A stretch of 36,156 nucleotides of DNA, from the NCBI GenBank assembly GCA_004321925.1, contig SCQH01000033.1, positions 1-36,156 on the forward strand. The letters are read 5' to 3'. Under the pieces are notes generated by a model. The model searched no databases. It was not told the DNA's origin and saw nothing but the letters and a program-made list of their open reading frames with translations. The translations under genes and the position numbers were made by a program. This document shows, piece after piece, positions 1,023 through 12,573 of this stretch (positions are counted from its first letter, which is position 1; the number at the start of each line of letters is the position of its first letter). This DNA is from Nitrospirota bacterium. GTDB taxonomy: Bacteria > Nitrospirota > Thermodesulfovibrionia > Thermodesulfovibrionales > UBA6898.

Positions 1023-1642
1023 TAAACGATGCTTTTGATGAACCAGCCGCCGAAAAAAAGCAGAAAAACGCCGCAGGCATACAGCATATACCGGTAGCCG
1101 GCCTCTCCCATGGCATGCCGTCCCTTCGCAACCGCGCCCGAGACCATGCTGTACCAGGCAAGGTCGGCCGCTATATGACCCGCATAAAATGCCGCTGCCC
1201 CGGCCACCCCGGACCTCATTGAGCTGACGAGGTAGCCGAACCCTATCGTCACCCACCAGATGACCCAGTACGGGTTTGAGATGCTCCCGACAATGCCGGT
1301 CAGGACCAGGTTCATCCCGGGACGGCCCTCTTCTGCCGTAAAGACCAGCCGTGCCTTTCGGGCATCCTTTAAGAGCATGATCCCCATGACAATCAGGATC
1401 ACGCCGCCGGTCAGGCTGATAAAGGCCTTTGTCCTCTCTGCGGTCAGCAGCGGCGTTATGCCGAAGAAGAGCAGCAACACGATCGCCAGCTCAAGGATGC
1501 CATGGCCGAGGATGATCAGGGGGCCGGCCTTGAACCCTTTTTTTATTGACTCGCTCACGGTGATGGTCAGCAGGGGGCCCGGGACCAGTGCACCCGACAG
1601 TGCTATCACAAAGGAGGAAAAGGCTATCAGGACGAGGCTCAC
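1019..1642 (-). CDS. LysE/RhtB-family amino-acid exporter-like membrane protein
   Basis: A 207-residue integral membrane protein with about six hydrophobic segments, matching the LysE/RhtB translocator family that exports amino acids or related small molecules. The N-terminal segment ALSGALVPGPLLTITV carries the conserved P-G-P motif of the family. Later helices include a NPYWVIWW segment, also typical. The GTG start at 1642 overlaps the stop of the upstream radical SAM gene by 4 nt (GTGA), so it is translationally coupled to it. Substrate cannot be told from sequence. No signal of truncation. Confidence 0.85.
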   Translation of the reverse strand: MSLVLIAFSSFVIALSGALVPGPLLTITVSESIKKGFKAGPLIILGHGILELAIVLLLFFGITPLLTAERTKAFISLTGGVILIVMGIMLLKDARKARLVFTAEEGRPGMNLVLTGIVGSISNPYWVIWWVTIGFGYLVSSMRSGVAGAAAFYAGHIAADLAWYSMVSGAVAKGRHAMGEAGYRYMLYACGVFLLFFGGWFIKSIVY

Positions 1643-3261
1643 GACCTGAGGGCCTCCTGATACTCCTCCCAGAGCCTCTCTTTAGCCACACCGGCATCGA
1701 TGAAGTCCCAGGGAAGCACCTCAGCAATATCTTTCCTTCTAAATATGGAGAAAGACCTGTCTGCCGCGGCAAAGCCCGAAATTCCTGTATGAGCGGTCTT
1801 TTCTATGAGCGCAGAGCTGCGCCTGTCGCCGATCGAGAGGACTCCCTGGAAATAGGCCTGCTTCACAATATCGTAATTGACCTTCACCCCTTTGACGTTC
1901 GAAAGCCCCTTTTTCAGGATCTTCAGCCGTTCCTTCACCTCTCCCATCCTCTCCATAGGGTGCCACTGAAAAGGGGTGAAGGGCTTCGGGACAAAGGTGC
2001 TGGCAGTGATGTTTATAAAGCCGCGCCTGTTTCGGTCGCGGATCTTCTTCACCAGAGAAACGATGCCGTTGATATCTTCCCTTGTCTCGGTCGGAAGGCC
2101 GACCATAAAATAGAGCCGGAGCGTCTCGACGCCTTCGGCCAGGATCAGGCCTGCCGCCTCGAGAATGTCTTCTTCGCTGATCTTCTTGCTGATCACCCCC
2201 CGCAACCGTGCGGTCCCAGCCTCAGGGGCGATGGATACGCTCTTATGTCCTTTCATTAACGATACAATCCTGCCGCTTTTTGAACTGGCCCTGAGCGAGG
2301 TGATCGAAAAATCAACGCCTTCTATCGCAAGCACCTCTTCCGCATGCTGATAATCCGAAAGCGACGGACCGATCAGCCCCACCCTCTTCGTCTTCTTCAG
2401 CGCCTCGGAGATCTCGGCCTTCATCTCGGCCAGGTCCTTCTTTCTGACCGGCTTATAGATATGTCCGGCAACACAGAACCTGCAGGACCAGGGACAGCCG
2501 CGCATCGCCTCTGCCAGATACATACCGGAGAAACTGGCCTCGGGAGTAATGATGACCGGCCTGATGCCCTTAACGGAGATGCTCGCGACCGTCCGTTTTT
2601 TTATCCTGGCAGGGGCAGCAGGCAAAGAGGTCCGGCCGGAGATCTGCCCTGTCACCGCATCGTAGGCCACTGAATAAAGGCGGGGAATGTACAGGCCGCT
2701 GATATGCAGACAGGCGCTGTAGAGATCGTCCCGCTGCCTGTGGCCCCTGAAGACGTCGATAAATTCAGGCAGCATCTCCTCTGCCTCCCCGATGAAAGAG
2801 ATGTCGATGAACTCCGCCATCGGTTCAGGGTTATAGAAGGCGCAGACCCCTCCCATGATGATCAGGGGATGTGCCGGCATTCGGTCAGAGCTCCGCAGCG
2901 GGATGCGCGACAACTCCAGCATCTTCAGGACATTCGGATAATCGTTTTCGAAAGAGACAGAGAAGGCAACGATATCAAAATCGGCCAGCGGCCGTTTCGA
3001 TTCCATCGAAAAGATCCCGGTCCCGCTCTTTATATGCACGTCAATATCCTCCGGGGACGGCAAAAATGCCCGTTCAGCGACAACATCCGGCATGCTGTTG
3101 AGCAGCCCGTATATGCCCTGGAACCCGAGGCTGGACATGCCGACGGAATACGTGTTCGGATACAGAAGGGCTATACTGATCCTGCCGCCTGGGTCCTTAT
3201 AGATCGTACCGGTCTCACGGGAGAGCAGATGGTCGGTCTTCTCATACAATTGCTGGTTCAT
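1639..3261 (-). CDS. Radical SAM protein with N-terminal B12-binding-like domain (TIGR03960-like)
   Basis: A 540-residue protein with a CxxxCxxC iron-sulfur/SAM motif, seen as CPWSCRFC (coding bases near 2476-2500), hence a radical SAM enzyme. The first ~200 residues (ALLYPNTYSVGMSSLGF, ESKRPLADFDIVAFS, PLIIMGGVCAFYNPEP) look like the cobalamin-binding-type domain of the TIGR03960 group. Reaction and substrate are unknown. I prefer the ATG at 3261 (MNQQLYEK) over the upstream in-frame ATG at 3309, because a TATAAT hexamer lies at 3271-3276 and would place transcription start next to 3261. TIGR03960 proteins are often fused or adjacent to a TIGR03936 partner and an RNase; here it stands alone with a LysE-type exporter. 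Confidence 0.85.
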   Translation of the reverse strand: MNQQLYEKTDHLLSRETGTIYKDPGGRISIALLYPNTYSVGMSSLGFQGIYGLLNSMPDVVAERAFLPSPEDIDVHIKSGTGIFSMESKRPLADFDIVAFSVSFENDYPNVLKMLELSRIPLRSSDRMPAHPLIIMGGVCAFYNPEPMAEFIDISFIGEAEEMLPEFIDVFRGHRQRDDLYSACLHISGLYIPRLYSVAYDAVTGQISGRTSLPAAPARIKKRTVASISVKGIRPVIITPEASFSGMYLAEAMRGCPWSCRFCVAGHIYKPVRKKDLAEMKAEISEALKKTKRVGLIGPSLSDYQHAEEVLAIEGVDFSITSLRASSKSGRIVSLMKGHKSVSIAPEAGTARLRGVISKKISEEDILEAAGLILAEGVETLRLYFMVGLPTETREDINGIVSLVKKIRDRNRRGFINITASTFVPKPFTPFQWHPMERMGEVKERLKILKKGLSNVKGVKVNYDIVKQAYFQGVLSIGDRRSSALIEKTAHTGISGFAAADRSFSIFRRKDIAEVLPWDFIDAGVAKERLWEEYQEALRS

Positions 3262-3270
3262 GCTGCTTCT

Positions 3271-3276
3271 ATTATA
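3271..3276 (-). promoter_or_regulatory. -10 element (TATAAT) of the radical SAM gene
   Basis: A perfect TATAAT on the minus strand ends 9 nt before the ATG at 3261. I see no good -35 hexamer at 16-18 nt. If used, the mRNA would have almost no leader. Confidence 0.4.
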
Positions 3277-3319
3277 CTTGCCGGTGCGGGTAGAGAGGTA
3301 TCGAATCAATCCGGTGTGC

Positions 3320-3325
3320 TAAAAT
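3320..3325 (+). promoter_or_regulatory. -10 element (TAAAAT) of smpB
   Basis: TAAAAT ends 6 nt before the smpB ATG, which would make the transcript start at or within a base or two of the start codon. No Shine-Dalgarno sequence and no convincing -35 box are visible. It is divergent from the minus-strand TATAAT at 3271. Confidence 0.35.
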
Positions 3326-3331
3326 TCAGCT

Positions 3332-3781
3332 ATGACCATTGTGGCCCAGAACAGAAAGGCCTTTCATGACTATGCGATCGACGAGACGCTCGAGGCAGGG
3401 ATAGTCCTGACCGGGACCGAGGTAAAATCCCTCAGGGACGGGAAGGCGAATCTCATGGACAGTTACGTCCTCATCAAGGGGTCTGAGGCATTACTGCTGA
3501 ATTGCCATATAAGCCCTTACTCACACGGCAATATCATGAACCACGATCCCATCAGGACGCGGAAGCTCCTCCTGCATAAAAAAGAGATCGCCAGACTTCA
3601 GGGCAAGATATTACAGAAAGGCTATTCGCTCATCCCGCTGAAGATCTATTTTAAGGGCTCCCATGCAAAGGTAGAGGTTGGTCTCGCACGAGGAAAGAAG
3701 CAGTATGAAAAGCGGGACACGATCAAGAAAAAGGAAGCCGACCGCGAGATCCAGCGCGCAATGAGGAATCGCAACAAATAA
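3332..3781 (+). CDS. smpB: SsrA-binding protein SmpB
   Basis: A 149-residue protein of normal SmpB length. SmpB binds tmRNA and delivers it to stalled ribosomes for trans-translation. The diagnostic segments are present: [11 protein letters not shown] at the start, [17 protein letters not shown], an [16 protein letters not shown] segment, and the basic C-terminal tail that occupies the decoding centre. The gene stands alone on the plus strand between divergent and convergent neighbours. Its RNA partner ssrA is encoded in this same window about 8.4 kb downstream in the same orientation. The ATG at 3332 is the only sensible start; a -10-like TAAAAT directly before it suggests a leaderless mRNA. 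Confidence 0.97.
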
Positions 3782-3791
3782 TCTTCTGCAA

Positions 3792-3820
3792 GCCGGATGT
3801 CAGCCCGGCAGCCTTTTGAT
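3792..3820 (+). terminator. Possible terminator after smpB
   Basis: A 5-bp GCCGG/CCGGC stem with an 8-nt loop (3792-3809) is followed by a T-rich stretch containing TTTT and TTTC. It sits between the convergent smpB and LRR genes. The stem is short, so the call is tentative. Confidence 0.35.
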
Positions 3821-3836
3821 TTCTTCTGGACTGTCC

Positions 3837-5000
3837 TTATCTCGCTGCGACGGTGATCTGCTTGTCTATCACCCTGACGCCGTCGAGGAAGATCTCGAAT
3901 TTCCATTGGCCGGGGCTGTCGAGGTTCTTCCGTATCTGATAAGCGGTATAGGTATAATGCGTATCATCGGACGGCGAAAAATCCATCTTCGTCTGCTTGA
4001 CCAGATCTCCTGAGCCGTCATAGATGTTGCAGAGATACTGGTGTGTTTCTCGCGGAAGGGAGTACCACATGACATAGAGGTATATCGACTTCTCCTCCAG
4101 GGTCAACTCCCTGAGATTGTTTATCGGTTCATTGTTCTCATCCAGCCCGTTGGTAAATATCGCCCGGTAATTGGGGCTCCCCGCAGAACTCTTCTTCTTT
4201 TCAGGGCTGCGTGCCGTCTTCACCGGAGGTTCGGCCTGTTTGCCCGCCAGATCGAACTTCAGATTGGGAAAGTTCTTTTTCAACATCTCAAGGTCCGCAG
4301 AAGTGATATTGCTGCCGCCAAGGATAACCCTGAGCCCCTTTACCGTTTTGAAATCATCAGGGAAAGAGGGAACATTTGCTGATATAACCGAGAGTTCCTT
4401 AAGCTTTTTCAGCTTTGCGACAAAAGCCGGGATCTCCGGGATGCTGTTATCGTCCAGCAGAAGCCTCTCGAGCTTGTCCAGCCCCGCGATCTGCTGCGGC
4501 ACCTCTGTCAGGCCGTTTCGTCCCAGATCGAGCTCTGTCAGGTTCTTGAGGCGCGAAATGCCTTTCGGCAGGTGCTTTGCCTGCTTCTTCAGTGTCTGTT
4601 TTGAAGTATCAGCAGCAGCGTTGTCCGTGACGCCGGAGAGCCTCAGCACCCTGAGATTGGACAGATTCCCGATAGATTCAGGAATGGCAATGTTCATTTT
4701 GCATCCGCTGCCATTGTCGATGATCAGCCTTTCAAGCTTCGGCAGACTTCCGATCTCGGCAGGCAGGGCTTCAAGCTGCGGAAGACAGCCGATCTGAAGT
4801 CTCTGCAGGTTCCGGAGCTTCTTTATCTCAGGCGGCAGCTGTTTCAGCCTGGGATCATCCTTCAGTGTCACCACAGTGGCCTTCTTCGGATTTGACAATG
4901 CAGCCTTCAGGCTGTCGTACGACTGGGCCTTAGTCTCAACCGGCAATGAGCCTAGTACGAGCAATGATATAACAGCAGATCTCAGGATAGTTTTCGGCAT
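3837..5000 (-). CDS. Exported leucine-rich-repeat protein with C-terminal beta-rich domain
   Basis: A roughly 387-residue protein with an N-terminal signal peptide (hydrophobic core AVISLLVLGSL, likely cleavage after VETKA). Residues about 50-255 hold around eight leucine-rich repeats of the bacterial LPxxIxxLxxLxxLxL type, for example LPPEIKKLRNLQRL and VPQQIAGLDKLERL. After a basic linker (SPEKKKSS) the last ~110 residues form a separate, probably beta-sandwich domain (IYLYVMWYSLP, GQWKFEIFLDG). LRR surfaces bind other proteins, so a binding or scaffolding role outside the cytoplasm is likely, but no function is known. AGGAGG at 5005-5010 sits 4 nt before the ATG at 5000 and only 1 nt before the ATG at 5003, which favours 5000. 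Confidence 0.8.
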   Translation of the reverse strand: MPKTILRSAVISLLVLGSLPVETKAQSYDSLKAALSNPKKATVVTLKDDPRLKQLPPEIKKLRNLQRLQIGCLPQLEALPAEIGSLPKLERLIIDNGSGCKMNIAIPESIGNLSNLRVLRLSGVTDNAAADTSKQTLKKQAKHLPKGISRLKNLTELDLGRNGLTEVPQQIAGLDKLERLLLDDNSIPEIPAFVAKLKKLKELSVISANVPSFPDDFKTVKGLRVILGGSNITSADLEMLKKNFPNLKFDLAGKQAEPPVKTARSPEKKKSSAGSPNYRAIFTNGLDENNEPINNLRELTLEEKSIYLYVMWYSLPRETHQYLCNIYDGSGDLVKQTKMDFSPSDDTHYTYTAYQIRKNLDSPGQWKFEIFLDGVRVIDKQITVAAR

Positions 5001-5003
5001 CAT

Positions 5004-5278
5004 TCCTCCTGTATGTCTTCATAGTTGATCATACCAATTATCCCTTACAATCAATGACTTGACAGTATACCACAGCTCAGCATTTATAGTCAGCAGCCAT
5101 CGTTGTCAGTCGGGATGAAAAAAGCCCGGAAAACCCTGAAAAAGAAGTTGCAATCAGCAGTGATAGAGATACAATTTTAGTAGGAATAGCAGTGCATGAT
5201 AACAGACTGCTGTCCGGTCAGATTTATTAACCGTAAGGGGCAGCATGTTATGTGCCAACATTAAAAAGGGGGTGCGAT
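5004..5278. other. Divergent intergenic region between LRR and collagen-like genes
   Basis: 275 nt without a gene. On the plus strand TTGACA (5059-5064) is followed 18-19 nt later by TTTATAG (5083-5089), a fair sigma70 promoter about 190 nt upstream of the collagen-like gene, implying a long leader. On the minus strand TATGAT (5028-5033) with TTGATT 15 nt upstream (5049-5054) could serve the LRR gene. No hairpin, riboswitch or small ORF stands out. Confidence 0.4.
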
Positions 5279-6229
5279 ATGAAAAAGCTAATGAAGGGGT
5301 ATATCGGTTCGGCAGTCATGGTTACTCTGCTTGTTTTCATGGCAATGGGCAGGGCATGGGGAGATGCGACATATTCATCCGACGGGAATATCCATCTGTA
5401 TATGGTGGATGTCCCGGGATCAGGTATGTATGATGCCTATCTGAAGGCAACGGACAGCACCGGGCTGGAGTTTGTGCTTACCAGTGCGCAGGAGGTTGCT
5501 CCTGGACCGGGCATTGCAGCGAAGTTTACCGGAGAGACAGGCATTCTGAGCATACCGAAGCTTGCCATGAACGGGGTGAGCAATGATACGAAATATGTTG
5601 ATGTTGATCTGGAGCTCATACCCGGATCAGACCCTATGAAGTTTAAGGTAAAAGGTGTTTATGGGCTGCAGGTTGGCGTTGACGACAGGGGGCCGATGGG
5701 ACCCCGGGGACTTAAAGGAGACACCGGTGCAACAGGACCGCAGGGGATACAGGGAGTGGCAGGTCCGATGGGGCTGCAGGGACCGATAGGCTTGCCAGGA
5801 CCGACTGGTGCCACTGGCGCTACAGGTGCAACGGGGCCGCAGGGGATCCAGGGTGCAGCAGGACCGCAGGGGCCGATTGGTTTGACCGGTGCAACAGGCC
5901 CGCAGGGGATACAGGGAGTGGCAGGACCAACAGGTGCCACGGGCGCAACGGGAGCAGTAGGAATTTCACAATACGAGTATTTCGAAGTGAGTGTGCCGTG
6001 CACTAACGCGTTGTGTTCGGGACAAGCCAATTGCTCTGCCGGTAAGTCCGTATTGGGTGGGGGCGTCTGGCGACCAGGAGGTGGGGTACTCGGGAATAAC
6101 CTTCACGCGAGTTACCCCCACAATACCTGGGTAGGCTTCCCGCCGGATCATTGGCACGGGGATGTCCAAAACATGGACTGGTTCGAAATCACTTTTAAAG
6201 TCTGGGTCATCTGTGCTGTGGTCAATTAG
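5279..6229 (+). CDS. Exported collagen-like Gly-X-Y repeat protein
   Basis: A 316-residue exported protein. The ATG at 5279 is preferred over 5252 because AAGGGGG precedes it at good spacing and it opens a clean signal peptide ([10 protein letters not shown], hydrophobic [10 protein letters not shown], likely cleavage after RAWG). Residues about 23-137 form a unique N-terminal domain. Residues 138-230 are 31 uninterrupted Gly-X-Y triplets (bases 5690-5968), rich in GAT, GPQ and GIQ. The last 86 residues have four cysteines and a GKSVLGGG motif, resembling C-terminal domains found on other bacterial collagen-like proteins. Such proteins form triple helices on the cell surface or in the matrix. 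The repeat DNA itself is internally repetitive, so copy number may vary between strains. It may be a surface adhesin; this is inference. Confidence 0.88.
5690..5968 (+). repeat. Collagen-like triplet repeat tract (31 x 9 nt)
   Basis: Thirty-one consecutive GGN-N3-N3 codon triplets. A longer unit, about 40 nt encoding [10 protein letters not shown] plus V/A, A, G, P, recurs three times (near 5724, 5823 and 5896), showing duplication of blocks rather than only single triplets. Confidence 0.9.
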
Positions 6230-6230
6230 G

Positions 6231-6280
6231 GGCCATTTTTTGGCCTTCGGCGCTTGGACGGGGCGGCTTGTTGCTGCCCC
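6231..6280 (+). terminator. Hairpins after the collagen-like gene
   Basis: Two inverted repeats follow the stop codon. GGCCA/TGGCC (6231-6245) has a T5 loop. GGGGCGGC/GCTGCCCC (6260-6280) has an 8-bp stem with one G-U pair and a 5-nt loop, followed by a mixed AT stretch rather than a T run. It probably terminates transcription between this gene and the convergent TPR-CHAT gene. Confidence 0.5.
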
Positions 6281-6360
6281 ATCATTATTGTATAGTTGCT
6301 CTTCTGCATGAAATCTTCCGGACAAACCTGTCGACCCGAAAGGGACGTTTATCCGTAAGG

Positions 6361-7700
6361 CTAATTCGGGTTGCCGACCAGAATAAAGGCACCCCAGTAA
6401 AAGGGGTTCGGTTTTTTCTTCATGATCTCAAGCTTGGCCTGCCGCAAGGCCTCTGCCTTTGATTTCCCTTCTGCCATGAGACCGTAGAAGCCGGTCATCA
6501 GCTCCATGGTCTCTTTGCTCGGCACGCTCCAGAGGCTGAGGATGACCGCTTTCGAACCTGAAAGGATAAAGGCACGCTTCAGCCCGAATACCCCCTCCCC
6601 GCTCTGGACGTCCCCAACCCCTGTCTCGCAGGCGGAGAGTACGACAAGGTCTGTCCCGCTGAGCCTCAGGCCCATGACCTTCTCGGCGCTCATCACGCCT
6701 TCGTCCTTGCCCTCGCGCAGGGAAAGGTTGATCCCCGCAAGCGCAATACCTGAACGCAGCATCGGGTTGTCTTTAAACAGCAGGTGATCAGAGCCGGATG
6801 TATCGGCAGTCTTCAGAGGATCGGCCCTTGAGATGAAATACCCGTGGGTCGCCAGGTGCAGGATCCTCGGCGACCCGGCAGTAAGCAGAACAGATTCCAC
6901 GGCTTTTTCGCTCTGATAGTTCTTCACCGTCAGCTTCATCCTCCGGGTCAGTATATCCTGGATCGTATTGGCTTCGCTCTTCGTATGAGGGAGCCTCGCA
7001 AAAAACGCAAGGTCGCTCCCTTTTGGTATAACATGCGTTTCCGTCTCTGCCCCGGTCGCCTTATCTGCGCCCCTCACCTTTACGGCCAGACCCAGATCGT
7101 AATCAGGGTCAGCAATGATGACTGCCGCCCCCTGCCCGCTCCGCGGGGCAGTCGCCTCGAACCTCACGAAATCCCTGCCGGCAGATATATAGCTGATCCG
7201 GTACTTTTCAATGGCATACTCATTCTGCGCATTGAGCAGGATCTCAACAGGTATCAGGTTCAGCATGCCGTCAGGGCTGACATAAAGGTGCTGTTTACCC
7301 GAAAGGTGCTGCTCAAGGGGGTTGAGAATAAGCCGGTAGATCTCTGCGGCCTCCCTGTCGAGCAGCTTCCTGTTGGGGACATATGCGTTCCGTGCGGCAT
7401 TCATGGCCTTAAGGTATGTCTGGATATGCTTCTCGATGATGTCGGCCGGCCCAAGGTCAATAAGCTGAGCCGGCGATATTTCTCCCGGGTTGAGGATAAA
7501 TACTAGATACCTCGGTTCTTTCCACTTCTTCTCCTGAAAATCGAACGTCCCGATCCTTGCAAAATCGAGATAGACCGAACCAGGAGGAAATATCCCGGAG
7601 ATCCTCGACGCATCAGCCCGGCCTGACCTCTTGTCAACGGCAAAATCAGCGCTCTTAGCCGACAGGGCAGCCTCAAGAGACTCTTTAAGGCGTTCATTCT
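6361..7700 (-). other. CHAT protease domain region of the TPR-CHAT protein
   Basis: Approximate extent of the region downstream of the TPRs. It contains the helical linker and the CHAT fold, with FPPGSVYLDFA, YVSPDGMLNLIPVE, the catalytic histidine and the catalytic cysteine in the usual order. The C-terminus NPFYWGAFILVGNPN is the standard CHAT ending, so the domain is complete. Confidence 0.85.
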
Positions 7701-10700
7701 CGAGGATCATTCTTTTTGTGTCTTCGAAGGTCAGATTTGTCACGCGTGAACTCTGCAGTTTCGCGATCTCTCTCCTCGTCTTTGTCAGTTCCTCAAAGAG
7801 CGTCTTGATCTCAGAATCTCCCGATTCAACGACCGCGGCTATATGCCTTCCCTGTGCCTCCATGACAGCGCCCTTCCACTGCAGCCAGGCATTGAGCGTT
7901 GTTTCGACAGCCTGCGCATCGGCTGACAGATACGCAGCCGAATGGCTCAGGAACGTATACATGGACCTTTCCGTTTCCTTCATATAATTGAGTTTTTCCC
8001 TTTCGGACAAAAGGAGAAATACGTTTTCGCGTTTCCCCCCTTCATTCTGCATGAAACGCCGGAAGAAGAGATGACTGTCGCTATGCCTGCCCTGAAAGGC
8101 ATTGAGGAGGGCCAGTTTCTCGGCAGTCGAAGCCACCCTGGGGTGACCCTCGCCAAAGGCAGCCAGACGGGCCGCATATGCCTTCTGCAGGTAATGGCCT
8201 GAGGTCTCATACCTCCCCGCAGCCAGGTACAAAGCTCCGAGATTATGCAGGCTGTCTGCGACAAAAGGCGCCCCCTGATCGTAGACTTTTTCCCTGATCT
8301 CAAGCGCTGTCCTGAATTTCTGCTCAGCCTCCTGAAATTTTCCGGCAGTCATCGAAAGACCCGCAAGGGTATCGAGGCTCTCAGCAATGTCCGGATGATA
8401 CCTGCCGAAGGCCTTCTCACGTATCTCAAGCGCCCTGAGATAGTTTGTCTCAGCGTCCTTCACAGCCCCCCGTGCCTGATACAGGGAACCCAGAAGACTC
8501 AGTGTTTTGGCCACCTCAAGATGGTCTCTGCCGAGACTTTTTTCCTGGATCTCGAGCGCCTTTTTATATTCCTGCTCAGCCTCCGCAGCCCTGCCGCTGC
8601 TCTTGTAGAGCGCCGCCAGGGCAATACGGGTTTCGGCGACAGAAGGATGCTCCTTTGATAGGAGCTTTTCCCGTATCCCGAGAACCCGCTTGCTGAGAGG
8701 TTCGGCCTCGGCGTATAAACCTTTGGCAATATTGAGCTCGGCCAGTACCTCCATACTTCTGGCGGTCTGCAGGTGCCCGCTGCCGAGCTTCTCCTGGTTG
8801 ATCCTCAGCGCCCTCCCGACAAGCTTCTCCGCATCCTCGTATCTGCCCATATCCAGATACAGGCCCGCAAGTGAGGTCATGACCCGGGCTGTTCCCGGGT
8901 GCTCCCCTCCCCGAGCCTTTTCCATTATATCTATCGCTTTTTTGTAAAGGACCTCTGCGTCGCGGTATTTCCCCATCTCCTCGTACAGCGCAGCAAAGGC
9001 ACCGAGATTTGCCGCATATCTCGGGTGTTCCGCGCCCAGGAGCTTCCCGCTTATCTTCATGGACCTTGAGAGGAGCTGCTCAGCCTCAGTATACCGACCC
9101 AGCGTCATATACAGATGGGCCAGGCCGCTCATGCCGGATGCAATATCCTGATGTTCAGGGACGAGCATCTTCTGTCTGATCTCAAGACCCTTCTTCAGAT
9201 CGGCTTCCGCCTCAGCATATTTTCCTTTTGCAGCATACATAAGCCCAAGGGAGGTAAGGCTCTGGGCAATAAGGGGGTGGTCGCTGCCAAATACGGCCTG
9301 GCGGATCCTCAGGGCCTCTCTGAATGAGGACTCTGCCTCGGCAAGCCTTCCTGTCGAACGGTATATACTGCCGAGAAGCTGAAGGCTTTCAGCCACAGAG
9401 GGATGATCTTTTCCGGCCATGGACTCCCTGTCTCCGAGCGCCTGCCTGCAGGACTGCTCCGCCTTTTCATAATCACCAAGGGAGCTCTGGACTTCGGCAA
9501 GGGTATGAAGACTGGCGGATATATCGGGATGTCCCCGGTCAAAAGCCTTCCGGAAGATCGCCAGTGCCTCAGAGGCCATTTTCTGGGCCTCCGCATATTT
9601 CGCCATTGACCGGTACAGATTGGCAAGCGACCTGAGTGAAGCGGCAGCCTCCGGGTGGTCCTGGCCAAACTTCTCACGTCTGATCTCAAGGGCCTTTTTG
9701 TGAAGCTGTTCAGCTTCGCTCTGGTTACCCATAGCCTCCTGAAATTCGGCAAGATCGCTCAGGCTCGAGGCGTACTCGGGATGCCCGGCCCCCAGTGCCG
9801 CTTCTCTTATCTGCAGCGCCCGTTTCAGCAGGGGCTCGGCCTCGTTATACCTGCCCGAAGCCAGGTAAACATTGGCAAGCAGGCTGATGACAGAAGCAAT
9901 ATCACGGTGATCAGAATTCAGGTGTTTTTCCATTATACCAAGGGCCTTTTCACCGATCTTCCCGGCCTCCTGGTACTTCCCCAGCAGAACCAGCAGATCT
10001 CCCAGGGCTGAGAGACTCTGCGCAACAGAGAGATGTTCCTGGCCCAATGCGGCCTGTCTGATGTCAAGCGCCTTTGAATAGTGCTGTTTCGCTTCCCCAT
10101 ACTTCCCCTTGGCAGCAGAGATGCGGCCCAGCAGCATAAGGTTCTCCGAGATCGCTATCTGATTGGCGGCCGGTTTCTTCTCGAGAATGCTTAAGGCCTT
10201 CTTGCACAGGGGTTCTGCCTTGACCAGATCGCCCCGCTGGAAGGCCACCTCGGCCCGGATCTGCATGGTTTTTGCCGCTGACGGGATCTCAAAATCCCTT
10301 CTTTTCTGCATGATCTCATCGGCGCGGGTCAGTAAACCCTCAACCATATCATATTTCGATATGTTCAGATAGAGTTCAGCAAGGGCATTGAGAGACCTGA
10401 TAATACTGGGGTGGTCCCTGCCAAGCCGTTTTTCGCGTATCGTGAGCGACTGCAGGTAAAGAGACTCGGCTTCCTGATACCTGCCCATGGTCTCATACAG
10501 CTCAGCAATAGTAGCAAGGTTTCCTGCAAGCGATGAATGGTCTTTCCCCAGTGCCTTTTCGCGGATCGAAATTGCCCTCCGGTAAAGGGCTTCGGCATCA
10601 CCATACCTGCCGGTCCTGCGATACACGGAGGCAAGCCTGCTCAGGCCTGCCGCAATTTCGGCATTGTCAGGGTCGAGGTTCTTCTCCCTGATCTCGAGGG

Positions 10701-11364
10701 CCTTCCTGTATTGTTCCTCTGCTGCCGCGTAGTTATTTTTGGCAGATGACAGCGTGCCCAGGCACGAAAGGGCAGATGCCATGGATAAGACGGCTGAATC
10801 TCCCCTGGCAGCGCTTATATCCAGTGCGGTCTTGCAGTACCTTTCAGCATCGTCGTGCCTCCTGAGCGAAATGGCGATCCTGCCGAGAAGGGTCAGGCTC
10901 TCGGCAACAGACTGATGGTCCTTGCCCAGGGCCTTCTCACGTATGCCCCAGGCCCTTTTGGCGTAAGACTCTGCTGCAGAATAGTCGCCCCTTGAGAGAT
11001 GGATCCTGGAATAAAGGTGGAGGCCATCAGCTATATGAGGATCGTCTCTTCCCAAAAGGCGATTTTGTATCTCCAGGGCCTTCGCCACGCTTGCCGAGGC
11101 TTCGTCGAACCTTTCCTCAAAATAAAGCTTCGCAGCCTCATTCATGAGCAGGTCAGCAGCAGGGAGGTCATTTTCAGCAGCAGAAACAGCAGAGGCAAAT
11201 AAAGAGACAAGAAGCAGTGACACAATCAGGTAACGTGCATTTATTTTTCCTGTAAGGCGGCCAGTATCTCCCCCCGTCTGCTGGGGAGAGATACTGGCCG
11301 CGAAAGAACGCCGACAAAACTTCAGATCAGATTCGGACAAGCAGCGGCCTGCGGTTAACGGCAA
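6361..11364 (-). CDS. Exported TPR-CHAT (caspase-like) protein with 24 tandem TPRs
   Basis: A giant protein (1667 codons from the first possible TTG start). The C-terminal ~430 residues are a CHAT domain, the caspase-like cysteine protease fold. Its catalytic histidine is in HLATHGYF (codon 6844-6846) and its cysteine in LSACETGVG (codon 6628-6630), both intact. Before it are 24 consecutive tetratricopeptide repeats, each exactly 42 residues (pattern LxxLAxLYxxxGRYxEAExLxxRALxIREKxLGxDHPxxA), the kinesin-light-chain-like TPR type; a 25th is degenerate. The stretch RYLIVSLLLVSLFASAVSA ahead of the repeats is a strong signal peptide, so the protein should act in the periplasm or outside. No ATG/GTG/TTG lies at a natural position for that signal peptide: the annotated start is TTG at 11364, but an ATA at 11244 behind AGGA fits better. 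Substrate unknown. Confidence 0.9.
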   Translation of the reverse strand: MPLTAGRCLSESDLKFCRRSFAASISPQQTGGDTGRLTGKINARYLIVSLLLVSLFASAVSAAENDLPAADLLMNEAAKLYFEERFDEASASVAKALEIQNRLLGRDDPHIADGLHLYSRIHLSRGDYSAAESYAKRAWGIREKALGKDHQSVAESLTLLGRIAISLRRHDDAERYCKTALDISAARGDSAVLSMASALSCLGTLSSAKNNYAAAEEQYRKALEIREKNLDPDNAEIAAGLSRLASVYRRTGRYGDAEALYRRAISIREKALGKDHSSLAGNLATIAELYETMGRYQEAESLYLQSLTIREKRLGRDHPSIIRSLNALAELYLNISKYDMVEGLLTRADEIMQKRRDFEIPSAAKTMQIRAEVAFQRGDLVKAEPLCKKALSILEKKPAANQIAISENLMLLGRISAAKGKYGEAKQHYSKALDIRQAALGQEHLSVAQSLSALGDLLVLLGKYQEAGKIGEKALGIMEKHLNSDHRDIASVISLLANVYLASGRYNEAEPLLKRALQIREAALGAGHPEYASSLSDLAEFQEAMGNQSEAEQLHKKALEIRREKFGQDHPEAAASLRSLANLYRSMAKYAEAQKMASEALAIFRKAFDRGHPDISASLHTLAEVQSSLGDYEKAEQSCRQALGDRESMAGKDHPSVAESLQLLGSIYRSTGRLAEAESSFREALRIRQAVFGSDHPLIAQSLTSLGLMYAAKGKYAEAEADLKKGLEIRQKMLVPEHQDIASGMSGLAHLYMTLGRYTEAEQLLSRSMKISGKLLGAEHPRYAANLGAFAALYEEMGKYRDAEVLYKKAIDIMEKARGGEHPGTARVMTSLAGLYLDMGRYEDAEKLVGRALRINQEKLGSGHLQTARSMEVLAELNIAKGLYAEAEPLSKRVLGIREKLLSKEHPSVAETRIALAALYKSSGRAAEAEQEYKKALEIQEKSLGRDHLEVAKTLSLLGSLYQARGAVKDAETNYLRALEIREKAFGRYHPDIAESLDTLAGLSMTAGKFQEAEQKFRTALEIREKVYDQGAPFVADSLHNLGALYLAAGRYETSGHYLQKAYAARLAAFGEGHPRVASTAEKLALLNAFQGRHSDSHLFFRRFMQNEGGKRENVFLLLSEREKLNYMKETERSMYTFLSHSAAYLSADAQAVETTLNAWLQWKGAVMEAQGRHIAAVVESGDSEIKTLFEELTKTRREIAKLQSSRVTNLTFEDTKRMILENERLKESLEAALSAKSADFAVDKRSGRADASRISGIFPPGSVYLDFARIGTFDFQEKKWKEPRYLVFILNPGEISPAQLIDLGPADIIEKHIQTYLKAMNAARNAYVPNRKLLDREAAEIYRLILNPLEQHLSGKQHLYVSPDGMLNLIPVEILLNAQNEYAIEKYRISYISAGRDFVRFEATAPRSGQGAAVIIADPDYDLGLAVKVRGADKATGAETETHVIPKGSDLAFFARLPHTKSEANTIQDILTRRMKLTVKNYQSEKAVESVLLTAGSPRILHLATHGYFISRADPLKTADTSGSDHLLFKDNPMLRSGIALAGINLSLREGKDEGVMSAEKVMGLRLSGTDLVVLSACETGVGDVQSGEGVFGLKRAFILSGSKAVILSLWSVPSKETMELMTGFYGLMAEGKSKAEALRQAKLEIMKKKPNPFYWGAFILVGNPN
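11257..11301 (-). promoter_or_regulatory. Long perfect hairpin ahead of the TPR-CHAT signal peptide
   Basis: A 14-bp perfect inverted repeat (arms 11257-11270 and 11288-11301, GCGGCCAGTATCTC and its complement) is extended by an inner CCCC/GGGG. There is no T run on either side, so it does not look like an ordinary rho-independent terminator. It lies between the upstream gene's stop (11355) and the likely translation start near 11244, placing it in the mRNA leader if the ATA start is right. Possible roles are attenuation, mRNA stability or processing. Confidence 0.6.
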
Positions 11365-11891
11365 ACCCAGTCCCCATGCCTGTTGAGCCGCCAGAAGCAG
11401 TCGTAGAACCTGTCATGATGACGGCGCTCATAATAATGATGCCCGCCATAATAACCATGCCCATGCCCCCACCGGTCGCGGTGGCCGCGATGATGCCTCA
11501 CTTCAGCAACTTCCGGGGCATCCTTTATCTTCGCTATCAACGCCAGCAGCTCCGCATCATCAGCAGCGAATTCCTTTGCCTTGGCAAGCAGAGACTCACG
11601 GTCGTACTGGGCTCCGTCTTTGCTCTTTTCATCCTTAATGCCCTTGAAAGGCAGATCATCCAGGATCTTGACCGCACTGAGCATTATGATCGGGTCCTTC
11701 TCTGCCTCGCCGTAGGAGATCACCCTCAGTAAAAGGTTTGCCTTTTTTTGCAGTTCAGATCTATGCTTTTTCTCGACGACCATAACGCCTTCTTTTTTTG
11801 AATCATCCTTCTTCTCCTCAGCCCATGCTCCGTTGAAACTAACGGCAACCACAAAAACAAGCATCATGACAAACCAGAATGTTTTTTTCAT
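11355..11891 (-). CDS. Small exported His-rich protein upstream of TPR-CHAT
   Basis: A 178-residue protein I do not recognise. The ATG at 11891 is chosen because AGGAG sits about 8 nt upstream and it opens a signal peptide (MKKTFWFVMMLVFVVAVS, likely cleavage after NGAWA); the open frame continues upstream to 12122 but without coding character. The mature part has a charged N-terminal stretch, a helical middle (residues ~45-125, DPIIMLSAVKIL and DDAELLALIAKI), and a His/Tyr/Gly-rich tail (HHRGHRDRWGHGHGYYGGHH) that could bind metal, ending with two cysteines (YDCFWRLNRHGDWVC). It is immediately upstream of, and co-oriented with, the TPR-CHAT gene, so the two probably form an operon. It could be a partner, inhibitor or substrate of the CHAT protease; that is speculation. 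Confidence 0.75.
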   Translation of the reverse strand: MKKTFWFVMMLVFVVAVSFNGAWAEEKKDDSKKEGVMVVEKKHRSELQKKANLLLRVISYGEAEKDPIIMLSAVKILDDLPFKGIKDEKSKDGAQYDRESLLAKAKEFAADDAELLALIAKIKDAPEVAEVRHHRGHRDRWGHGHGYYGGHHYYERRHHDRFYDCFWRLNRHGDWVCR

Positions 11892-12227: not shown

Positions 12228-12573
12228 GGGGGCGAAAGGGCTCGACGGGGGTTATGAGGCATATGTGGCATGTCGTGGCTCCATCACCACGTTAAAAGGT
12301 GGAAAAAAACACAAACGCCAACAACGAACTGGCACTCGCTGCTTAACTAAGCAGCTCGTCACTTTTGGATCGCCTGTGTCCGGGAGATGACGACAATGCA
12401 GCAGGCTGGCTGTCAGACCTGCCCCTGATCTGACGGCGAGACTAAGGGGGATTGGCCCTTAAAGAGTATGTCTGTTGACGCTTTAAGTGCTGAAAACCAA
12501 AAAACAGACTAAACATGTAGAAGCATATGTGTAGTACCTTCGGACCGGGGTTCGATTCCCCGCGCCTCCACCA
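12228..12573 (+). ncRNA. ssrA: Transfer-messenger RNA (tmRNA)
   Basis: A one-piece tmRNA of 346 nt that rescues stalled ribosomes together with SmpB. The 5' end GGGGGCG (12228-12234) pairs with CGCCTCC before the encoded CCA end (12571-12573), giving a 7-bp acceptor stem with a G-U at the third pair, the alanyl-tRNA synthetase identity element. The 3' part contains the T-arm GGGGTTCGATTCCCC. The tag reading frame reads A-N-N-E-L-A-L-A-A then TAA (12317-12346), ending in the LAA-type degron used by ClpXP. The stop codon sits inside a GCTGCTTA/TAAGCAGC hairpin just as in other tmRNAs. The exact resume codon is inferred. It lies 83 nt upstream of an amidase gene and about 8.4 kb from smpB. Confidence 0.97.

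Follow-up and report, generated by a model that had tools for sequence, protein, structure and literature searches.

A probably exported TPR-CHAT protein of a Nitrospirota bacterium with 25 exactly phased repeats and an intact caspase-like His–Cys pair

Introduction

The characterized CHAT proteases that we found act inside the cell. Csx29, the CHAT protein of type III-E CRISPR systems (Craspase), is cytoplasmic, RNA-gated, without a signal peptide, and much shorter than the protein described here. In both, tetratricopeptide repeats (TPRs) come first, then a linker, and the His–Cys pair lies in a CHAT domain at the C-terminus, but Csx29 is encoded with gRAMP/Cas7-11 and Csx30, and sequence identity is about 16%. 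When Csx29 binds RNA, its linker moves and the distance between His and Cys falls from about 7 Å to about 3 Å; a Cys-to-Ala substitution abolishes activity (PMC9729208). Eukaryotic separase follows a similar plan, in which a large helical repeat array precedes a caspase-like domain; it differs in being inhibited by securin and in cleaving cohesin, with 12–18% identity in the aligned part.

Gingipains (peptidase family C25) are exported cysteine proteases with a caspase fold, although they belong to a different family, have no TPRs, use type IX secretion, and are specific for Arg/Lys. DdvA (8rot, 8rw5; DdvS/DdvA of Myxococcus xanthus), a solved structure titled as a transmembrane anti-sigma factor, has a C-terminal CHAT domain that, from the title and the domain order, would face the periplasm. 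DdvA is a membrane-anchored anti-sigma factor, whereas our protein appears to be of a soluble exported type; it has no Pfam anti-sigma match, its sole hydrophobic segment is the signal peptide, and it matches DdvA weakly in sequence (E = 0.04). HetF of Anabaena, the founding CHAT protein, likewise has TPRs, together with a membrane segment (PMC8406250). Its CHAT domain is N-terminal, however, with one transmembrane segment, and its role is in cell division and heterocyst development. Finally, a set of uncharacterized exported CHAT proteins linked to two-partner secretion (TPS; for example L029, L065, L070), one of them in the same genome, have a signal peptide, TPRs, and an intact CHAT domain, but they form a separate clade, carry far fewer TPRs, and are encoded with TpsB, TpsA, and often DUF928.

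Here we analyze a TPR-CHAT gene within a 36,156-nucleotide stretch of DNA (the window) from a 3.2 Mb genome whose relatives are Nitrospirota, the nearest with names being Thermodesulfovibrio and Nitrospirae metagenome-assembled genomes (MAGs). With slightly more belief than doubt, we read the gene product as an envelope-located, ligand-gated cysteine protease resembling separase and Csx29.

Results and Discussion

The open reading frame (ORF; 6361–11364, minus strand, 1667 residues) proceeds from a signal-peptide-like segment through TPRs and a helical linker to the C-terminal CHAT domain (Table 1). The repeats are matched by Pfam TPR_12 (E = 2.6e-182) and TPR_10 (E = 2.3e-167). An initial annotation had counted 24 gapless repeats of 42 residues; their length and spacing are indeed exactly 42, but there are 25 of them. 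When the repeat region was compared with itself, a lag of 42 gave 331 matches and each of the other lags between 30 and 59 gave 52–120, which shows a periodicity beyond chance. The orthologue (genome G003) also has 25 repeats, and each of the 25 window repeats has its same-numbered counterpart as best match (identity 0.50–0.83 on the diagonal; off-diagonal mean 0.32). The array is therefore older than the split between the two and has kept its order, and this pairing by number throughout argues for a static recognition surface. Other clade members have 5–14 repeats, nearly all at 42 residues, although a spacing of 41 or 43 or a skipped repeat turns up now and then; exact phasing belongs to this TPR type or family and is not peculiar to the window protein.

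Table 1. Features of the TPR-CHAT gene and its immediate surroundings, in window coordinates
Feature	Coordinates	Strand	Basis
Exported TPR-CHAT gene, likeliest coding extent	6361..11244	-	ORF; Pfam TPR and CHAT; N-terminal alignment with orthologue (L024); start is a probable non-standard ATA or an assembly error
CHAT (caspase-like) domain; catalytic His 6844-6846, Cys 6628-6630	6364..7353	-	Pfam; invariant His/Cys; fold match
Helical linker, TPR array to CHAT	7354..8022 (boundary approximate)	-	AlphaFold2 model; 63.5% identity to orthologue
25 tetratricopeptide repeats, 42 residues each	8023..11172	-	Repeat self-comparison; best match is same-number repeat of orthologue
Signal peptide INARYLIVSLLLVSLFASAVSA, predicted cleavage before AEN	11179..11244	-	Hydropathy maximum of protein; AXA-type site; signal peptides in relatives
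Hairpin, 19-bp perfect stem, 7-nt loop, intergenic between neighbor gene and TPR-CHAT gene	11257..11301	-	Fold analysis
178-residue exported neighbor, His-rich two-Cys C-terminal end	11355..11891	-	ORF; linkage to TPR-CHAT gene also in sister species

The listed TTG start at 11364 overlaps the gene upstream and is almost certainly wrong, because a perfect hairpin separates it from the signal peptide. The 151-base stretch holding this hairpin has a fold z-score of −3.55, and the orthologous locus has a hairpin of different sequence at the equivalent place. Retention of position without retention of sequence is intergenic behavior, so coding probably starts after the hairpin. We also considered the hairpin as a genome-wide repeat and rejected this, as its stem sequence is paired only at 11257–11301 in the genome. 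No in-frame ATG precedes the hydrophobic segment in the window ORF. The codon opposite the orthologue's ATG (MNKIKYL...) is ATA at 11242–11244, and a start at GTG 11221–11223 would yield a signal peptide lacking a charged n-region. The start is likely this ATA, either as a real non-standard start or as the site of a base error in the assembly.

The strong signal peptide noted in the initial annotation is a real hydrophobic segment that relatives conserve. The segment, INARYLIVSLLLVSLFASAVSA, is the hydropathy peak of the window protein, and no other 19-residue stretch is as high. The orthologue begins with an ATG-started signal peptide, MNKIKYLRLLLIP.... Clear signal peptides, such as MKKGRTIGVLAILALSLSLIFS... 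and MRTGKIAGIFCAVFFCLSLLFS..., also open the full-length sequences that Nitrospirota, Thermodesulfobacteriota, and Eremiobacterota contribute to the window's clade, and nearly all full-length relatives have one when Zixibacteria and Verrucomicrobiota are added. The initial annotation had regarded homologues lacking a signal peptide as contrary to export; the relatives instead keep it. The window protein is thus probably exported out of the cytoplasm and, judged from sequence, export is conserved among its relatives.

The feature extends well beyond this clade. By a crude rule-based signal-peptide test, 54 of 66 distinct CHAT loci in a Nitrospirota-centered sample encode an exported protein or lipoprotein, a count in which at least two positives look false (L043, L084) and at least two negatives show a visible signal peptide (L059, L065). 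The rule applied was the looser of two, as an earlier stricter one missed visible signal peptides, and neither equals SignalP; some proteins of the set are cut by contig ends, and the sample leans to the best-scoring matches in the phylum. Several of the 66 are predicted lipoproteins. Clearly cytoplasmic CHAT proteins are few (L030, L091, L093, L094, and L051, the last with another domain at its N-terminus). At L030 (6879–10824 of G000 contig C119), a cytoplasmic protein that combines cyclase and CHAT domains with a CsgG/LpoB-like end is encoded beside an ECF sigma factor gene, and L091 is a similar locus. An Eremiobacterota MAG (L048, 4603–13004) carries tandem exported CHAT genes with near-identical signal peptides.

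The CHAT domain matches PF12770 over residues 1338–1665 (E = 1.5e-69; 235 bits against a cut-off of 24). His1507 and Cys1579 (numbered on the 1667-residue ORF) lie in the motifs LHLATHGYF and LSACETG, in agreement with the initial annotation that both are intact, and they are invariant in 18/18 aligned homologues at identities down to 27%; an inactive site in close relatives, which would have spoken against that annotation's proposal, was not seen. The motifs are also kept in nearly all remaining exported CHAT groups. Over the linker-CHAT region, identity to the orthologue is 68%, and dN/dS is about 0.1–0.15 with dS saturated, indicating purifying selection. This conservation suggests that the window protein is catalytically competent. 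An AlphaFold2 model of linker-CHAT (mean pLDDT 76.5, pTM 0.80) predicts a caspase-like fold, with Csx29 as the best match (Z 31.4, 354 residues, 3.1 Å), followed by separase (Z about 25–27) and by gingipain and DdvA (both Z ~21).

The resemblance to DdvA raises an alternative that we judge rather improbable, in which the window protein is an envelope sensor or scaffold whose CHAT domain is structural or regulatory, with little or no proteolysis, as may hold for DdvA. The title of the DdvA structure as an anti-sigma factor, together with other CHAT proteins in the phylum that adjoin ECF sigma factors and CHASE2 cyclases, is consistent with such a role. Against this, a purely structural role would not need His and Cys to be invariant across the clade, and the window protein has neither a transmembrane or anti-sigma segment nor a sigma factor or cyclase neighbor.

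A second alternative follows from the genomic context of other exported CHAT proteins. Searching around the sampled CHAT genes with a paralogous locus from the same genome (L029), we found TpsA and/or TpsB genes near the CHAT gene in 21 loci, often with DUF928 and sometimes with CHASE2-cyclase genes. The L029 locus itself (1142–10980 of G000 contig C26) comprises TpsB, a TPS adhesin, DUF928, a CHASE2-cyclase, and an exported CHAT-TPR gene; the sister genome conserves it (L034), and ~20 sampled Nitrospirota loci have it with variation. A maximum-likelihood CHAT tree places the 20 TPS-linked loci it includes on the same side of a branch supported at 100/100, and the window's relatives on another; the 17-row group of the window protein has 100/99 support. 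The tree carries a long-branch warning, and its deep joins are less certain than the two groups themselves. The window protein is a member of this second exported CHAT clade, without a TPS link. Exported CHAT proteins might nonetheless mature or release filamentous-haemagglutinin-like proteins in general, with the window protein acting on another surface protein such as its leucine-rich-repeat or collagen-like neighbor. The single TPS-linked side of the tree and the paralogue in the same genome favor this proposal, and DegP proteolysis of FhaB in the periplasm (PMC8263021) offers a precedent. We nevertheless consider it unlikely for the window protein, which falls in the other clade, with no TPS genes seen in the window or adjoining its nearest relatives, and for which adjacency to a collagen-like gene present in ~12 genome copies is weak evidence.

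That the protein is instead cytoplasmic, with translation starting after the hydrophobic segment or with the segment unused, as a Csx29-like or other defense or regulatory CHAT protease, accords with the missing upstream ATG and with the cytoplasmic action of CHAT proteins such as Csx29, but is very improbable given the ATG-started signal peptide of the orthologue, the signal peptides of most relatives, and a neighborhood free of CRISPR and PADLOC matches and of any cytoplasmic partner.

Neighborhoods of the same-clade relatives do not converge on a partner. In four of them an efflux-type operon (families assigned for one, L050) lies downstream of the gene, with nothing in common with the window; a CHASE2 cyclase is near one relative (L044), and nothing recurs beside the others. 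No partner gene is common across these neighborhoods, so no conserved substrate is visible. Among four other members of the genus that were searched, two gave no match and a third retains just a TPR-CHAT remnant (L026, 12367–12786) of 114 residues, 77% identical and with the Cys region preserved, which suggests gene decay; the function is therefore dispensable. No relatives were found among viral contigs.

The best available candidate for a ligand, inhibitor, or substrate is, by linkage, the 178-residue exported neighbor. Conservation of this neighbor, raised as a check in the initial annotation, is confirmed in the sister species, where a 60%-identical counterpart also lies immediately upstream of the TPR-CHAT gene, but does not extend further: no convincing homologue scored elsewhere among 296 phylum genomes, leaving it in two genomes only. 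It has no Pfam or NCBIfam match, and Foldseek with a modest model (mean pLDDT 68.5) gave E values no better than 4.6, a null result that does not support a new fold. Just upstream of the neighbor gene, and divergent from it, is a tmRNA gene (12228–12573, plus strand; tag ANNELALAA).

As the initial annotation had noted, no CRISPR or defense genes lie near the gene in the window; PADLOC returned nothing meaningful, and gRAMP/Cas7-11 and a CRISPR array are absent among the annotated genes. On the other side of the gene is an exported collagen-like (Gly-X-Y) protein (5252–6229, plus strand), whose N-terminal domain has expanded in this lineage: the genome has ~12 copies, most 80–86% identical, and searches of four other genus members found none. 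It was dropped as a specific partner owing to this copy number and its absence from the sister species. An exported leucine-rich-repeat protein (3837–5003, minus strand) has a 55%-identical copy in the sister genome, ~7 kb away from the TPR-CHAT orthologue there.

The envelope-protease reading is favored because export is conserved, His and Cys are invariant, the gene is under purifying selection, and the fold matches Csx29 and separase; the absence of a common partner in same-clade neighborhoods and the loss or decay of the gene in genus members weigh against it. On the envelope-protease reading, the protein would be exported via Sec and its signal peptide removed, after which the 25-repeat superhelix would serve as a fixed surface that recognizes one particular periplasmic or cell-surface protein or peptide. 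By analogy with Csx29 and separase, the helical linker may keep the His–Cys pair restrained until a ligand that binds the superhelix displaces it, opening the active site. The enzyme would then cut one specific envelope protein, with the co-encoded neighbor as a putative ligand, inhibitor, or substrate.

Conclusions

The initial annotation had proposed that an exported TPR-CHAT protein represents a different biology. Conserved export and an intact active site are upheld, but exceptional status is not, because exported CHAT proteins are common in the phylum, where they form the majority of our sample, one clade is tied to TPS, and DdvA has been solved. In our literature search, which covered few subscription papers, no study dealt with exported TPR-bearing CHAT proteins or gave one a function, and none connected CHAT with TPS. 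Exported CHAT proteins are thus common yet almost unstudied, and the window protein is better seen as a promising lead than as a new type of system.

More broadly, and tentatively, exported CHAT proteins may form a widespread extracytoplasmic separase/caspase-like branch for envelope processing or signaling, with one branch devoted to two-partner-secreted adhesins and a second, including the 25-TPR protein, to other envelope partners. If exported CHAT proteins are active, separase-like proteases would be present in the envelope of many bacteria. TPS adhesins supply a natural substrate hypothesis for one clade, and the window protein comes with a simple two-gene pair. Both would allow a direct test of what this common but unnamed family of genes does, and the conserved TPS link of the former provides an immediate entry point.
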